A DNA stretch of 50,371 nt from Terriglobia bacterium. Its GTDB lineage: Bacteria; Acidobacteriota; Terriglobia; Bryobacterales; Bryobacteraceae. The DNA is taken from NCBI GenBank assembly GCA_021324185.1, contig JAJPJN010000089.1, positions 1 through 50,371 of the forward strand, read 5' to 3'. A program made the translations under genes and the position numbers. Numbering within the stretch: position 1 is the first letter of the stretch; each line of letters starts with the position of its first letter. Below, in pieces: positions 63 to 47,593 of this stretch. Under the pieces are notes generated by a model. It had not been told where the DNA came from. It saw only the letters and a program-made list of their open reading frames with translations, and did no database searches.

Positions 63-677
63 ATGGCGACAGCCGCACAAGTCAAAGCAAACCGCGAGAA
101 CGCAAAGAAGTCATCCGGACCCACCAGCGAGGCCGGCAAAGAAGCTTCCAGCCTGAACAATTTCCGCTACGGCCTTACGGGACATGCATTTCTTTTCCTG
201 GAATGGGAAAATCCGGAAGTTTTCGACGCCATGAAAGCGGCGCTCACTGCAGAACACAAGCCTGCTACGGTAACCGAACACATTCTTGTTGAAAAAATGG
301 CCCAGTATTACTGGCTCAGCCAGCGCGCTGTGGAATTGCAAACGGTGGAAATGTTCCAGGATCCTTACGATGCGGAAAGGCACCAGCGCATCGCCAACTT
401 CGCGCGCTACCAGGCGATGCACGAGCGGCTCTTCAAAAGTGCCCTCCACGACCTGCTAAAGCTAAGAGCCGAAAGGCGCAAAGAGCAAATTGGGTTTGAA
501 TCGCAAAAACGCGCTGCAGCCGAAGAAGCACGCCGCGCCGAACTTCAGCCGTACAAGCTGGCCACTGCGAAAACGTGTGCCGGGCGTGCGCAATCGCACA
601 CAACCACCCCAGCAAGGAAGGCCACAGCCGCAATGGAGCGCATGGAAACACCCCAAAACGTCCCCATCGCCGCCTGA
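63..677 (+). CDS. Hypothetical protein of the ANR..K(S)SGP family
   Basis: A 204-residue soluble protein of unknown function. The N-terminus (residues about 8-42) has the pattern A-N-R-x-N-A-x-K-S-S-G-P..GK..SS.N..YGLTG, which I recognise from a family that occurs in many copies in acidobacterial genomes; no biochemical role is known to me. The middle (residues 60-160) is charged and probably helical, with an Arg/Lys/Ala-rich stretch (residues 135-165). The last 35 residues look unlike a folded domain, and the +1 frame stays open to 789, so a late frameshift is possible. A purine-rich AAAGGAA lies 9 bases before the ATG. No partner gene is visible; the next gene is 157 bases away with its own promoter. 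Confidence 0.7.
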   Translation: MATAAQVKANRENAKKSSGPTSEAGKEASSLNNFRYGLTGHAFLFLEWENPEVFDAMKAALTAEHKPATVTEHILVEKMAQYYWLSQRAVELQTVEMFQDPYDAERHQRIANFARYQAMHERLFKSALHDLLKLRAERRKEQIGFESQKRAAAEEARRAELQPYKLATAKTCAGRAQSHTTTPARKATAAMERMETPQNVPIAA

Positions 678-43538: not shown

Positions 43539-44372
43539 TTATCTCAATCCCGCTACGCTGTCGGGCGATGCGCAGTTTTCGCCCGGATCGAGCCATTCTC
43601 GAATCAGCTTGCGTATCGACTCCATATCAGAGCGTACGCCGGTTAAGGTGTAATAAACGTGCCGCCCCGACCAGCGGTTCAACTTCATATTTGCAACTGC
43701 GCGCGGATAATCTACTTTCGCGTCCCGTAGCGGCTTATTCACGACGTAGTGTGAGAAAGGCGCGAAGTGGTAGGGAGATGGTGAGCCTGCCTGCGCAACA
43801 TGATCCTGACTATTCAGCCAACCTACCGGCCAGTGGTCCCAGCGTACGGCGCCCCACCCCCAGCCGCCCGTATCCTGGAATGAGTGGTCCACGGCCTGAC
43901 TTTTGTCGCTCGGAAAGCCACTGGCGGGACCCAGAATGGTGAACAAATGCCCGGCCCTAAACGACACAACCATGGCCAGGCCGCGCGAACGTGAAATTTC
44001 AAGTAACAGCTCGGCGTTGCCGTTTCGCCGCGGGTTACCCGCGTCATCCCAAAATTTGTCATATCGCTTGTTCGAGTAACCATCGATAACTGAACCTACA
44101 AAATAGTCACCGTGATCAGTGTCGCGGGTAAATACATCAGCCCAAGTAAGTCCGTTGCGAACGGGCGAGAAGAAATCGACCGGTTGCCAGCTATATCCGG
44201 CAGGCCTATCCGGCTTGAGGCTCTCGTAAGTCAAACGTCGCCACACCAGGCCATTCGGATACGCCACGTAGTCTTCCGTCCCGCGCAGTGCCGGATCCGG
44301 GAACGGGGTACGCGCAAACAGAGGCTTGGCAATTGCGCGCGACAATGCTTTGAGAAATGCTCGTTTGTTCAC
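43539..44372 (-). CDS. Hypothetical protein downstream of the PmoB-like gene
   Basis: A 277-residue protein that I do not recognise. The first 20 residues (GTG start, MNKRAFLKALSRAIAKPLFA) are basic and amphipathic, perhaps a weak export signal. The rest is rich in Trp, Tyr, Asp and His (DTDHGDYFVGSVIDGYSNKRYD, DTGGWGWGAVRWDHWPVGWLN, YHFAPFSHYVVN), which suggests a folded extracellular or redox-type protein. It lies 52 bases after the PmoB-like gene on the same strand, so it may belong to that unit. No function can be given. Confidence 0.6.
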   Translation of the reverse strand: MNKRAFLKALSRAIAKPLFARTPFPDPALRGTEDYVAYPNGLVWRRLTYESLKPDRPAGYSWQPVDFFSPVRNGLTWADVFTRDTDHGDYFVGSVIDGYSNKRYDKFWDDAGNPRRNGNAELLLEISRSRGLAMVVSFRAGHLFTILGPASGFPSDKSQAVDHSFQDTGGWGWGAVRWDHWPVGWLNSQDHVAQAGSPSPYHFAPFSHYVVNKPLRDAKVDYPRAVANMKLNRWSGRHVYYTLTGVRSDMESIRKLIREWLDPGENCASPDSVAGLR

Positions 44373-44424: not shown

Positions 44425-45993
44425 TTACTGAACCGTAGTATCGAAAACGCCGGTTTCCACTGTATGTCCGTGCTTCATCTGCACGAAAATGCGGTAGCGG
44501 CCGGGCGCCGGGAATCCGTAGGGAAAGCTGACCTCGTTCGGAAGCGTTGCCGCATGCATATCCATTGCGGGCATGTTGCTCATGTCCATCGTAGACATGT
44601 CCATGTTTGGCATGTTCATGCCCGGCATGGTGTCGGAACCGGCCGCGCTCGCGCCCGCATGGTTTTGTGCTAGATTCATCGCAGCCATGGACGCCGTGCC
44701 CATGGGATGAATATGGGCAAACACGCTCCCATCCGTTTTCACAAATGCCGCATGCCCCAGCATGCCCATATAAAGCGCCATGTCTTTCGGGGCATGCCCT
44801 TGCGCATCGACAAGGCGGAAACGGAAAGGCCTTCCCTCGCGCGCTCGAAAGGCCCGGCCGTCGCGAAGCCACTCCATGCGGTAGCCGTCCGGCAGTGTAA
44901 AGGAGTTTGCGTCAGTGGACGCCTGCATCCAATCCGGCGCGCTGCCGCTCGAATCGTCACCAATAAGAGGGCGTGACGGCAGACCTGGGGGAACCGTCAC
45001 AATCGCGACCGGCGTTTCGGGGAATCCGTTGGCGTGCACAATGTCGGCATATAAACGATAGGTGCCCGGCCGCATCGCGGGCAGCTGCAAATGAAACACA
45101 CCTGTTTCTACCTGATCCGGATGGAGATGATACACGACATCGAGGCCGGGTTCGCGAATGGCATACAAGTGCATGATGTGGTCGTGATCGGGCACAAGAT
45201 CTTCCAGGCCGTGCCGTACGTAAAACAGCTTGAGACGGGACGGCGCATTAGGTCGTGGTTTCAGCCAGCCGGAATCGGTGAGTCGCAAGGTTAACAATCC
45301 ATCGCGCGCAAGCGAAGCATTCATTTGCACAGGCCGGTACACGGTGTCGCTGTAACTTCTCGCTTCGCTGTTCCACCATGTGTTAGCTGCCCAGAGCACA
45401 GCAACCAGAACAGCGCCTGCCACTGCCATTGCAAGCTGCCCTTTTCTTCGAGCTGCGGAGGAAGGTTGAACTCCGGGATTCAATTTCGCTTCGCGCACGG
45501 ATGCCCCGGCGATCGCCACTAAACCGCCCACCAAAAAGAGTCCCAGAGCTCCCAAAAAAAGACCCATGCCGAGTTGCATTTTCTTTGTTGCGACCGCAAC
45601 GGATGCGACGGGCGCCGATACTGTCCCTTGGCCTTTATCGCCCAACGCCGTAATGCGCACCTGCCAGGAGCCAGGCGCCATCATCCACAGTGATCCAGTA
45701 AAAAATTGCGGGTCCGTTTTCGACTGCGTTAGCTGGTCCGGCAATGGAGCGAATTGCGCTCCCGGGCCGGCAATGGGAACGGGAACGGCGCGCAGCTCGC
45801 GGACGCCAGGAGTCTCGCTTCGGATTTCGAGAGCCGCCACGCCGGGAATGACCTGCGGCGGCCGAATCGTGATGAACAGTTGATACGGGCCGGCATTGGC
45901 ATCCAGATAAACATCGGAACTGCCGACATGCGCGCGGGCAGCCAAAACGAACAGGGCGGCAACGGACAATCTGCTGAGCGTTCGAAATTTCAT
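44425..45993 (-). CDS. PmoB-like copper-binding membrane protein with Met/His-rich tail
   Basis: A 522-residue envelope protein. The signal peptide ends ARA, so the mature chain starts with His22, as in PmoB and CopC where this His binds copper. A beta domain (about 22-137, PGSW at 107-110), two membrane spans (about 142-164 and 187-205) and a long periplasmic part follow, the same layout as PmoB. Where PmoB has W-H-V-H (CuB ligands) this has W-Q-V-R (110-113). The second part is full of His: DHDHIMH (269-275), YHLHP (288-292), HIHPMG (427-432), KHGH (507-510), and a Met-rich segment (456-480, MPGMNMPNMDMSTMDM...). Subunit B of a copper monooxygenase, or a copper chaperone for the adjoining PmoC-like protein, are the two readings. 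The gap to that gene is 6 bases. Confidence 0.65.
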   Translation of the reverse strand: MKFRTLSRLSVAALFVLAARAHVGSSDVYLDANAGPYQLFITIRPPQVIPGVAALEIRSETPGVRELRAVPVPIAGPGAQFAPLPDQLTQSKTDPQFFTGSLWMMAPGSWQVRITALGDKGQGTVSAPVASVAVATKKMQLGMGLFLGALGLFLVGGLVAIAGASVREAKLNPGVQPSSAARRKGQLAMAVAGAVLVAVLWAANTWWNSEARSYSDTVYRPVQMNASLARDGLLTLRLTDSGWLKPRPNAPSRLKLFYVRHGLEDLVPDHDHIMHLYAIREPGLDVVYHLHPDQVETGVFHLQLPAMRPGTYRLYADIVHANGFPETPVAIVTVPPGLPSRPLIGDDSSGSAPDWMQASTDANSFTLPDGYRMEWLRDGRAFRAREGRPFRFRLVDAQGHAPKDMALYMGMLGHAAFVKTDGSVFAHIHPMGTASMAAMNLAQNHAGASAAGSDTMPGMNMPNMDMSTMDMSNMPAMDMHAATLPNEVSFPYGFPAPGRYRIFVQMKHGHTVETGVFDTTVQ

Positions 45994-45999
45994 ACTGGG

Positions 46000-47229
46000 T
46001 TACCGCTGAATCGCTTTAAACCACTGGGCGCGCGCAAAACCCCAGCGCGTGACGATTGTAGCCGCGACAAACGCGATCAGGAAACCGGACGCAAGTTCTG
46101 CTGCGCCGCCATTTGAGAAGAACTGATTGCGGGCCATGTATGACGTCGGAGGCAACCCGTACCAGAGATATGCGGTGCCGAAGAAGCGATTGCGCGATGC
46201 CGGTGACATCAAAAAATCCGCAAAAGGCCATTCCACCGCAACCAGGGCAATCACATAAATAGCCGCGCTTATGGCCGCTTTCGCCCAGGCATTCCAGTCG
46301 CGTGACTTCTGCCAGAACAGATCGAGCAGGAAAGCAGGGACGATCAGCAGCAGCGGGAATTCCGGTGGAATAAAGTGCGTCACATTCTGATACACCGGCC
46401 CTAGTTTCGGTTGCGCCGGAAACAATGGCAACACCAGAATCAGCCCGATAACAAACAGCATGTAAAAACCGGCAATGTGAGTTGCGGCGAACCGGGCGCC
46501 GGTCACGCCTGAGCCCACGGCGAGGATCAAAGGCGTCACAGAACACACAAGCACGTAAGGCAATGCCGTATGCAGCGCTGAGCGTTCCGTGTACTCCATG
46601 AAGATGACCATCGTCATTACCAGCATCATGCCCGCCAAATAAAGAAACAGCCAGCGATAGGCGGCGCGATGGCTCACAGCAGGCGTGTTCAGTGATCCGG
46701 CAGCGGTCTGCGCGCCTGATTTGGGCTCGCGATTCATGTGGCCGCAAATCAACACCATGGTTCCGAGAAGCACCGCATAGCCGCCGATAAAGAGCAGAAT
46801 ATGAGGCGGGCTCACGATCTTGACATCCAGCCCATAGGCGTTGTGCCACCAGTTATCGAACGGCGCCGATGTCAACATCGCGATGCCACCCCAGGAGGCG
46901 ATAAAGGCGCCCAGCGGCGCGCGAAATCCCCAGATGTGAACGGAGGCGGCCGCGAGCGGCGTAGTACGCGAAAACGTCGTGTGCAGAATGAGGTATCCAA
47001 ACGCGACTCCCGCCAGCACCCCGCATAAATAGATCGCCATGTGCGCGGGTGTCCAGAACGTGTCCCGCCCGATAGAACTGTGCCAGGAGATGTCCCAGTG
47101 ACCGCCGACCATCAATGACGTGCCCGCCAGCACGGCGCACCAGATATACCAAGGGACGCCGGCCGAGCGCTTTGACACAGCTTCCGTGCGCGCCGTCCGT
47201 ACGGCGGGCGAAGTCGTCAGCGTAGCCAT
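46000..47229 (-). CDS. PmoC/AmoC-like (possibly fused C-A) copper membrane monooxygenase subunit
   Basis: A 409-residue protein with about ten spans. DISWHSSIGRDTFWTPAH at 46-63 gives D46-x3-H50-x12-H63, the same spacing as the copper C site of PmoC (Asp156, His160, His173), with the surrounding W-H-x4-R-D-T-x2-T-P-x-H also shared. A second block (D125-NWWH129...VSPPH143) matches the later W-G-H...APLH block of AmoC, again with 14 residues from His to His. From about 220 to 409, FP..L..PAFLLD (291-303), DW (311), EWP (333-335) and Y..GLPPTSYMAR (354-367) recall PmoA/AmoA in order. GGGAGGA sits 5 bases before ATG. It may belong to one transcription unit with vanZ-like, rseP and dxr. By-eye homology; substrate unknown. 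Confidence 0.65.
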   Translation of the reverse strand: MATLTTSPAVRTARTEAVSKRSAGVPWYIWCAVLAGTSLMVGGHWDISWHSSIGRDTFWTPAHMAIYLCGVLAGVAFGYLILHTTFSRTTPLAAASVHIWGFRAPLGAFIASWGGIAMLTSAPFDNWWHNAYGLDVKIVSPPHILLFIGGYAVLLGTMVLICGHMNREPKSGAQTAAGSLNTPAVSHRAAYRWLFLYLAGMMLVMTMVIFMEYTERSALHTALPYVLVCSVTPLILAVGSGVTGARFAATHIAGFYMLFVIGLILVLPLFPAQPKLGPVYQNVTHFIPPEFPLLLIVPAFLLDLFWQKSRDWNAWAKAAISAAIYVIALVAVEWPFADFLMSPASRNRFFGTAYLWYGLPPTSYMARNQFFSNGGAAELASGFLIAFVAATIVTRWGFARAQWFKAIQR

Positions 47230-47245: not shown

Positions 47246-47593
47246 TTATGCTGTAAGCTCTATTTTCTTACGAACCAGACCGGCGATCGCAAACCCGAGC
47301 ACGATTCCCAAAAAATCGATCCAAACGTCGGGCCACTCAAAGCGGTTACCGTAAACAATTGCCTCAAGCCCTTCGAGTGCAAGCGCCAGGAAACAAGCTG
47401 CAAAAGCGCAGAGCAGTCGCCGTCGCGCGCTGCCCGGTTTCCAGCAAAAGAGAAGTGCGGTCACCATAAACGCAATCAGATGACCGGCGTAATGGAAGCC
47501 GCCTTTGGTCCCCAGTTCGTATTTCACCGGTTCGGGTGCAAGCGATAAAGCGAATAGAATCGCGAGCCAGACCGGCAGGATGACTCGGATCAT
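47246..47593 (-). CDS. VanZ-like membrane protein
   Basis: A 115-residue protein with four hydrophobic spans. The pattern LGTKGGFHYAGHLIAFMVTALL (His after the first loop) and DVWIDFLGIVLGFAIAGL resembles VanZ-family proteins, whose role in teicoplanin resistance and outer-surface chemistry is not well understood. It lies 10 bases after rseP and 16 before the PmoC-like gene, so it is probably part of the same unit. Confidence 0.8.
   Translation of the reverse strand: MIRVILPVWLAILFALSLAPEPVKYELGTKGGFHYAGHLIAFMVTALLFCWKPGSARRRLLCAFAACFLALALEGLEAIVYGNRFEWPDVWIDFLGIVLGFAIAGLVRKKIELTA

Follow-up and report, generated by a model that had tools for sequence, protein, structure and literature searches.

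A probable fusion of a PmoC-type copper core and a PmoA-like subunit in soil Acidobacteriota

We describe a 409-residue protein in which a PmoC/AmoC-type copper core is, very probably, fused to a subunit with the PmoA/AmoA fold. Its gene, hereafter the C-A gene, lies in a 50,371 nucleotide stretch of DNA from Terriglobia bacterium (the window). An earlier note on this DNA had proposed that C and A subunits are joined here in one polypeptide, and our analysis supports that proposal: a PmoC-like N-terminal half with both copper sites is followed by a C-terminal half that is predicted to have the PmoA fold. That this architecture also belongs to an oxygen-activating enzyme is, in our estimate, an even call. 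The features of the locus are listed in Table 1. The open reading frame, and all the residues that had been quoted from it (V231-T232-P233, F291...D303, R310-D311-W312, W334-P335 and G358...R367), were found where the note had placed them.

Table 1. Features of the C-A locus in the window. Residue numbers refer to the protein concerned.
Feature	Position	Strand	Basis or remark
VanZ-like gene, 16 nt upstream of the C-A gene	47246-47593	minus	E 1.1e-5, below cut-off
C-A fusion gene, ten model helices	46000-47229	minus	ORF, 409 aa
AF2 model of the C-A protein	46000-47229	minus	pLDDT 92.2, pTM 0.91; built on alignment A1
PmoC-like module, residues ~22-168, four helices in two hairpins	46726-47166	minus	profile, Pfam, structure
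CuC-type site D46-x3-H50-x12-H63 with R55, D56	47041-47094	minus	invariant in 110/110
CuD-type site D125-x3-H129-x13-H143 with D135, P141	46801-46857	minus	spacing as in PmoC
PmoA-like module, residues ~176-409, six helices	46003-46704	minus	VIA-align and hhalign
F291-P292...P298-A299...D303 motif	46321-46359	minus	conserved; P-x10-D as in PmoA
W334-P335 motif	46225-46230	minus	conserved; pairs with PmoA N-W-P
B-like partner gene, 522 aa, start 6 nt past the C-A stop codon	44425-45993	minus	AF2 model
Partner layout: probable signal peptide, beta domain 28-131, beta regions 223-334 and 348-521			
Partner helices of TM length, 141-168 and 179-215			AF2 model
Partner His22, likely first mature residue	45928-45930	minus	putative cleavage
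Met-rich stretch of partner, residues 456-480	44554-44628	minus	Cu(I)-binding type by composition
277-aa ORF downstream of the partner gene	43539-44372	minus	no Pfam match at E<=10

Direct assignment of the C-A protein to a family was rejected, because Pfam, NCBIfam and PDB sequence searches yielded nothing useful. There was no Pfam match at E<=10, the sole NCBIfam match was a permease model (E 2) and the PDB gave no sequence match, either to the single sequence or to a profile. A search of BFVD produced no meaningful match. The comparisons below use 110 homologous proteins of 379-412 aa, each encoded by one ORF closed at both ends. These were taken from 114 loci, with the actinobacterial loci L031-L034 left out. 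The 110 include near-identical copies; the 99 that remain below 92% identity form alignment A1.

The PmoC-like half and its copper sites

To judge from its sequence, the N-terminal half is homologous to PmoC. Comparison of residues 1-175 with a profile of nine canonical PmoC, using hhalign, gave an E-value of 4.3e-5 (score 39.2, probability 69%). As a control we used helix-preserving decoys, in which columns were shuffled within each helix and loop; none of 150 reached 39.2 and the best scored 23.9. Such decoy controls cover the C half, the A half and the swapped hhalign comparisons. The profiles were small and mostly plasmid-derived (PmoC 9 sequences, PmoA 6, PmoB 6), which limits their power. 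AmoC was also the commonest Pfam family among the 99 members of A1 (23 matched, best E 9e-5; the next family matched seven), and the NCBIfam AmoC models matched 23 and 17 of them. Over 396 genomes of the window's phylum, the AmoC model gave nine matches at E<=0.01: one over the cut-off, seven to members of the C-A family and one to an unrelated histidine kinase. A match below the cut-off was also seen in one of 14 control genomes (Haloferax volcanii). At E<=0.01, PF04896 matched nothing in the genome that the window comes from.

In PmoC of M. capsulatus, the CuC ligands are D156, H160 and H173 and the CuD ligands are N227, H231 and H245 (PMC12576850). The offsets within each site, +4/+17 for CuC and +4/+18 for CuD, are the same in the C-A protein. 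The protein has in common with PmoC/AmoC (PF04896, TIGR03078, NF041641) two helical hairpins, a CuC motif D-x3-H-x12-H and a CuD motif [ND]-x3-H-x13-H. Also shared are H-x4-R-D, an acid six residues past the first CuD His and a P-x-H end. The six CuC and CuD positions, together with R55, D56 and D135, did not vary in any of the 110 homologues and were invariant in A1. In an alignment of 52 sequences (37 family members, six actinobacterial relatives and nine canonical PmoC), D46, H50, R55, D56, H63, H129 and H143 were identical throughout. Conversely, two positions separate the groups. Position 125 is Asp in all 110 homologues and Asn in all nine canonical PmoC, so the CuD ligand equivalent to N227 is not kept. 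Position 135 is Asp in the 110 and Glu in the nine. The C-A protein further differs from PmoC/AmoC in being fused to an A module and in scoring below the family cut-offs.

PmoC chains were recovered on the N-terminal half by VIA-align (7s4m_C on model residues 17-180, Z 7.3; 7yzy_C on 16-177, Z 7.0, 19% identity). Foldseek placed six PmoC/AmoC chains after its top two hits, at probability 0.66-0.93 and 20-24% identity. The structural match does not rise above the Z background, and hence the PmoC assignment rests on sequence. The part of PmoC that is matched starts at residue 96 or 121; thus, the N-terminal helices of PmoC seem to be absent. When 52 sequences of the C module were placed in a tree (146 columns), canonical PmoC lay on a long branch with support 0.76; support was 0.73 for the family clade and 0.04 for the actinobacterial clade, and the tree as a whole is too weak for rooting.

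The predicted PmoA-like half

In the AF2 model, residues 176-409 appear to adopt the PmoA/AmoA fold. Eleven PmoA/AmoA entries took ranks 1-11 in VIA-align (Z 12.8-13.7, 198-214 aligned residues, 11-12% identity), and ten of them align on model residues 171/176-409. Two further PmoA entries scored Z 8.3. The best unrelated chain scored Z 9.0, which leaves a gap of 3.8-4.7 Z units below the eleven. The predicted structure, to which the earlier note had looked for evidence, thus matched PmoA/AmoA over nearly the whole of the C-terminal half. Mostly helical models may reach Z ~13-14 through a common arrangement; we favour the PmoA match despite this caution because of the gap to unrelated chains and the coverage. 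The top two of 350,542 chains in Foldseek were the A subunits of pMMO (9cl1_Ca, E 0.07) and AMO (9cl6_B, E 0.10), both with probability 1.00 although the E-values are weak. The same half (model residues 185-408) also resembles the S components of ECF transporters (4dve, Z 7.7; 4rfs, Z 7.0), a likeness that may bear on how the PmoA fold arose.

At the sequence level, the A half could be aligned colinearly with the PmoA profile over 185 columns (score 25.9, E 0.0056, probability 6.5%), and one of 150 decoys scored as high. The swapped hhalign comparisons were at decoy level, with 50/60 and 6/60 decoys as high. Neither of the results that the note had named as refuting its proposal was obtained: no other family recurred for this half, and its model did match the PmoA fold. 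PF02461, the PmoA model, does not match the C-A protein at E<=10, is absent among the best 25 of 53 Pfam families for the 99 A1 members, and matched none of 99 genomes from the phylum of a genome titled Binataceae (G538). The earlier note had seen no separate pmoA near the gene. This holds for the whole of the window's own genome, in which PF02461 found no match at E<=10; as a positive control, the model found its target in four of four plasmid records carrying pmoA, amoA or hmoA.

The AmoA-like motifs proposed in the note fared unevenly across the 110 homologues. The F-P..P-A..D segment is conserved (F291 in 109, P292 in 109, P298 in 105, A299 in 107, D303 in 110), as is W-P (W334 in 107, P335 in 101). 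V-T-P survives in part, through P233 (105; V231 in 27 and T232 in 12). Conversely, R-D-W and G-x-P..Y-x-x-R are not conserved. R310 occurs in 18 and W312 in 73, and D311 is not within the five commonest letters at its position; the counts for G358, P360, Y364 and R367 are 20, 59, 29 and 60. The two conserved motifs have counterparts in PmoA: P-x10-D was present in all six PmoA compared and N-W-P in three, with a distance from D to W of 29 residues in PmoA and 31 in the C-A family. Thus, PmoA/AmoA (PF02461) and the C-A protein would share the fold over nearly the full length, P-x10-D and, for part of PmoA, W-P in the same order. They differ in that identity is ~12%, the family model misses the C-A protein and A stands in one chain with C. 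The window's protein has nothing that visibly corresponds to the segment H-I-H ... D-W-D-F-W found in PmoA of M. capsulatus. The A-half assignment is made mainly because of fold, order and attachment to the PmoC module. An identity of 12% is ordinary between CuMMO lineages, since mean subunit identities between lineages are ~8-21% (PMC9038741).

The possibility that homologues elsewhere are split into two genes at the module junction was answered both ways. All 110 homologues are single ORFs. However, one genome (G1157) has a lone A half that starts at the junction (locus L167, 519-1250, minus strand of G1157:C129) and covers profile positions 174-395. There is no C half within 450 bases upstream and a full-length fusion is found elsewhere in the genome. 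The first possible start codon is just inside the A module, and so the lone half may be a remnant; it does mark the border between the C and A modules that the note had predicted. Other copies are disrupted. L121 has an in-frame TAG stop after ~residue 115, L163 a frame break near residue 250, and at L164 the copy is rearranged beyond residue 145, its pieces lying ~7 kb from each other and on different strands. Partial copies in G008 and G1161 (loci L166 and L168) are cut by contig ends.

The partner gene, its neighbours and the spread of the family

The C-A gene is followed by a partner that is probably a secreted, membrane-anchored protein of copper type, with the place and topology of PmoB. 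This view draws on an AF2 model with pLDDT 90.8 and pTM 0.87. PmoB consists of an N-terminal helix, a beta domain, two TM helices and a further beta domain. With PmoB/AmoB (PF04744) the partner shares the third place in the order, a probable signal peptide, a likely N-terminal His, and the succession of beta domain, two helices of TM length and beta domain. It differs in having no sequence match to PmoB, an extra beta region, seemingly no conserved counterpart of CuB H137/H139, and first and last domains that resemble CrdA. Identification of the partner as PmoB by sequence was rejected (hhalign score 22.5, against 21.0 for a reversed control). PF04744 did not match the window's partner at E<=10, and PmoB was not among the best 50 structural matches listed for the model, though the topology agrees. 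On our reading of the G-S-W-Q-V-R segment, the H-x-H that provides two of the three CuB His has no conserved counterpart there. The CuB site is also not conserved in verrucomicrobial PmoB (PMC6215863).

His22 of the partner is H in 85 of 86 complete partner sequences. In 81 it is preceded by a small residue at -1 and a small or aliphatic residue at -3, mostly as A-x-A. In PmoB the mature protein begins with His33 (PMC12576850). Given its place after A-x-A and its retention in 85/86, His22 probably begins the mature partner in the same way. Seven His are near-invariant in the partner, and 36 of the 86 sequences have at least five Met in the region of the Met-rich stretch. A structure search matched the partner to CrdA and CopC (Z 10.9, 10.6 and 8.7, the last being CopC 5icu), interleaved with unrelated beta sandwiches of similar Z. 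Pfam matches were to YtkA in 3/78 and to CopC in 1/78 (E 0.029). Foldseek hits, which were unrelated multi-domain beta proteins with query TM-scores of 0.11-0.21, were not used. Beta-sandwich domains are thus common to the partner and to copper proteins of the CopC, CrdA and YtkA-like kinds; the partner differs from these in having several domains and a two-helix membrane anchor, and in travelling with the C-A fusion.

The partner gene lies downstream on the same strand at 103 of 110 loci, and within 60 nt at 95. It is missing at seven. For L010 and L030 the DNA ends too soon. At L068, L082, L083, L086 and L102 it is absent within at least 3.7 kb downstream, and the six ligands are kept. The genomes of these five have, judged from record and contig names, another copy with a partner (L091, L071, L070, L074 and L061). 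Lone pmoC copies occur besides pmoCAB operons (PMC6688271), and the five partnerless C-A copies recall this.

Clustering of neighbours at 80 loci, with all ORFs included, gave best clusters of 8/80; solely the partner recurs near the main family. The gene caller found C in 76/80 of these loci and B in 56/75. Of the 129 ORFs selected for the Pfam census of neighbours, 86 were scanned; those left out were the longer ORFs and a number of others. Among the neighbours examined, no electron-transfer gene or methanol or hydroxylamine gene was recurrent beside the C-A gene, and this context points to no particular electron donor or substrate. No copper family was among the 25 commonest of 128 Pfam families in the 86 main-family neighbours. 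The VanZ-like gene is possibly co-transcribed with the C-A gene in the window, and it is absent from the neighbour clusters of at least four loci. The 277-aa ORF had no tblastn match in the 110 loci, many of which have little downstream DNA.

The C-A lineage is common in soil Acidobacteriota and Gemmatimonadota. Among 150 genomes of the window's kin, 43 had a relative, a count that includes the window's genome; so did 41 of 150 from the phylum of a genome titled Gemmatimonadetes. Among 145 genomes from the phylum of one titled Verrucomicrobia, a relative was seen solely in that genome. The named genome set held 118 relatives, of which 80 were kept for analysis. Most are titled Acidobacteria or families of it, with Gemmatimonadetes besides, and single ones are titled Verrucomicrobia, Eisenbacteria, Binataceae, Myxococcales, Rhodanobacteraceae and Betaproteobacteria. 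The carriers include culturable species such as Granulicella mallensis (L078) and Acidipila rosea (L048). The Rhodanobacteraceae title (L066, a MAG, G539) seems wrong, because its phylum set is identical to that of the window's genome. The Myxococcales and Betaproteobacteria titles (perhaps L058 and L074) may be mislabelled likewise. No C-A relatives were found on viral contigs.

More distant relatives are carried by actinobacterial plasmids. Eight plasmid records matched and seven loci were examined, Streptomyces sp. FR1 being left out. The relatives from Mycolicibacterium, Streptomyces and Leifsonia are single chains, 475-496 aa long. An alignment of five of them matched the fusion with E 2.3e-25 over 227 columns, up to ~residue 305. 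The same five matched the first domain of the partner with E 2.5e-4 (probability 43%, 88 columns) and gave no match to the PmoA and PmoB profiles (E 0.68 and 0.17). From these profile comparisons, the plasmid chains appear to run through C, A and then a B-type domain, following the gene order of the operon; the links are weaker for the B-type domain and for the later part of A. The positions of both copper sites are kept in six of the relatives. At L162 (5725-7575), Mycolicibacterium vanbaalenii has a 616-aa variant, extended at the N-terminus and carrying both copper motifs, that adjoins a CopC gene. Plasmid pMYCCH.01 of Mycolicibacterium chubuense NBB4 (L032, L143) has a canonical three-gene CuMMO operon as well as a single-chain relative.

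Copper or heavy-metal genes lie clearly beside four of the seven plasmid loci, L162 among them. The neighbours at L034 are a P-type ATPase and a cupredoxin; at L160, two P-type ATPases, YHS, a multicopper oxidase and a metal-sensitive regulator; at L161, a multicopper oxidase and a cupredoxin. Weaker hints were seen at L031 (YHS and a BlaI/MecI/CopY regulator) and L032 (a heavy-metal-associated domain and a BlaI/MecI/CopY-class regulator). At L033 there is no copper gene nearby, and the match to the relative is not covered by any single intact gene.

Candidate functions and significance

We lean towards an enzyme rather than a copper-handling protein. A copper-dependent oxygenase would account for the retention of both sites, of their second sphere and of the precise spacing across very distant groups. 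The protein would be a single membrane protein, made of a PmoC-type copper core (~22-168) and a PmoA-fold subunit (~176-409), and the fusion and its partner would form a minimal two-gene relative of the CuMMO with the usual C-A-B order. The two membrane sites may receive their copper from His and Met residues of the partner, and the Cu(I) there would bind O2 and oxidise a small hydrophobic substrate between the C and A helices. Electrons would come from the quinol pool, the source that has been proposed for pMMO. Monooxygenase activity of the C-A complex is itself inferred.

Copper handling without oxygenation is distinctly short of even but is a substantial alternative. The fusion and its partner would bind, store or move copper, much as CopC does with CopD. 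Such a complex would explain the actinobacterial context and the partner, with copper or heavy-metal genes beside 4/7 plasmid loci and weaker hints at two more. It would also suit the resemblance of the partner to CrdA and CopC, the few YtkA and CopC Pfam matches, the near-invariant His and the often Met-rich stretch. However, L033 shows no copper gene, the actinobacterial sample is plasmid-only and may be enriched in metal islands, and copper families are missing from the commonest families near the main-family genes. In addition, R55, D56 and the acid at 135, all second-sphere residues, are as invariant as the ligands. CopD was not among the Pfam matches of the window's C-A protein.

Two further explanations concern the nature of the protein. 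It is improbable that only the N-terminal half is related to CuMMO and that the rest is an unrelated membrane domain, for instance one like an ECF-transporter S component. The failure of PF02461 on protein and genome, the HH-suite probability of 6.5%, identities to PmoA of 11-12%, a Z of ~13 that the tool's own note puts within the chance range for helical models, and the matches to 4dve and 4rfs would all fit. Yet the eleven PmoA/AmoA entries fill the first eleven ranks well above any unrelated chain, the sequence alignment is colinear and was equalled by 1/150 decoys, and chance would have to produce, in the right gene order, a likeness to the very subunit that accompanies PmoC. Still less probable, to a degree that we regard as slight, is a functionless relic of a degenerate monooxygenase. 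The scattered distribution (43/150) and the broken or partial copies at L121, L163, L164 and L167 are what a relic would leave; against it, the six ligand positions are invariant in 110/110 proteins from several phyla by record title, and the partner is kept at 103/110 loci.

The CuMMO are described as encoded by three genes, usually xmoCAB (PMC6215863). We do not file the C-A family as pMMO or AMO, because the PmoA and PmoB models do not recognise it, the CuD Asn is replaced and the three-gene layout is lacking. Rather, the family looks like a new, deep CuMMO-like branch. The divergent archaeal CuMMO of Ca. Angelarchaeales is encoded by separate genes in the order C-A-X-B (PMC9038741). It is alike in being a deep lineage, with mean identities to known subunits of ~8-21%, and the text of that paper contains neither "fused" nor "fusion". 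We found no description of a C-A fusion in the open literature searched, from which most subscription papers and bioRxiv fall outside. A wider reading, for which we put the chances just short of even, is that of a further deep CuMMO lineage whose C and A subunits form a single protein, which in Actinobacteria takes in a B-type domain as well. The lineage would have been overlooked because standard family models hardly reach its proteins. Equally tentative is the remainder of that reading, namely the oxidation of a substrate that may be a trace gas or small hydrocarbon, at a reduced active site made of the CuC and CuD regions alone.

The location of the active site of pMMO has been controversial (PMC12576850). 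The C-A protein keeps the CuC and CuD positions without a recognisable PmoB and, seemingly, without the N-terminal part of PmoC, and is thus a natural minimal version. Such a version could be used to address the active-site question, and a single chain may be easier to express. CuMMO-like proteins would extend further into soil phyla, with relatives in 43/150 and 41/150 genomes, and this wider spread bears on what soil bacteria may do with methane, ammonia, trace gases and copper. Should the C-A protein instead prove to be purely a copper protein, this would suggest that these monooxygenases arose from copper-binding proteins or lived on as such.
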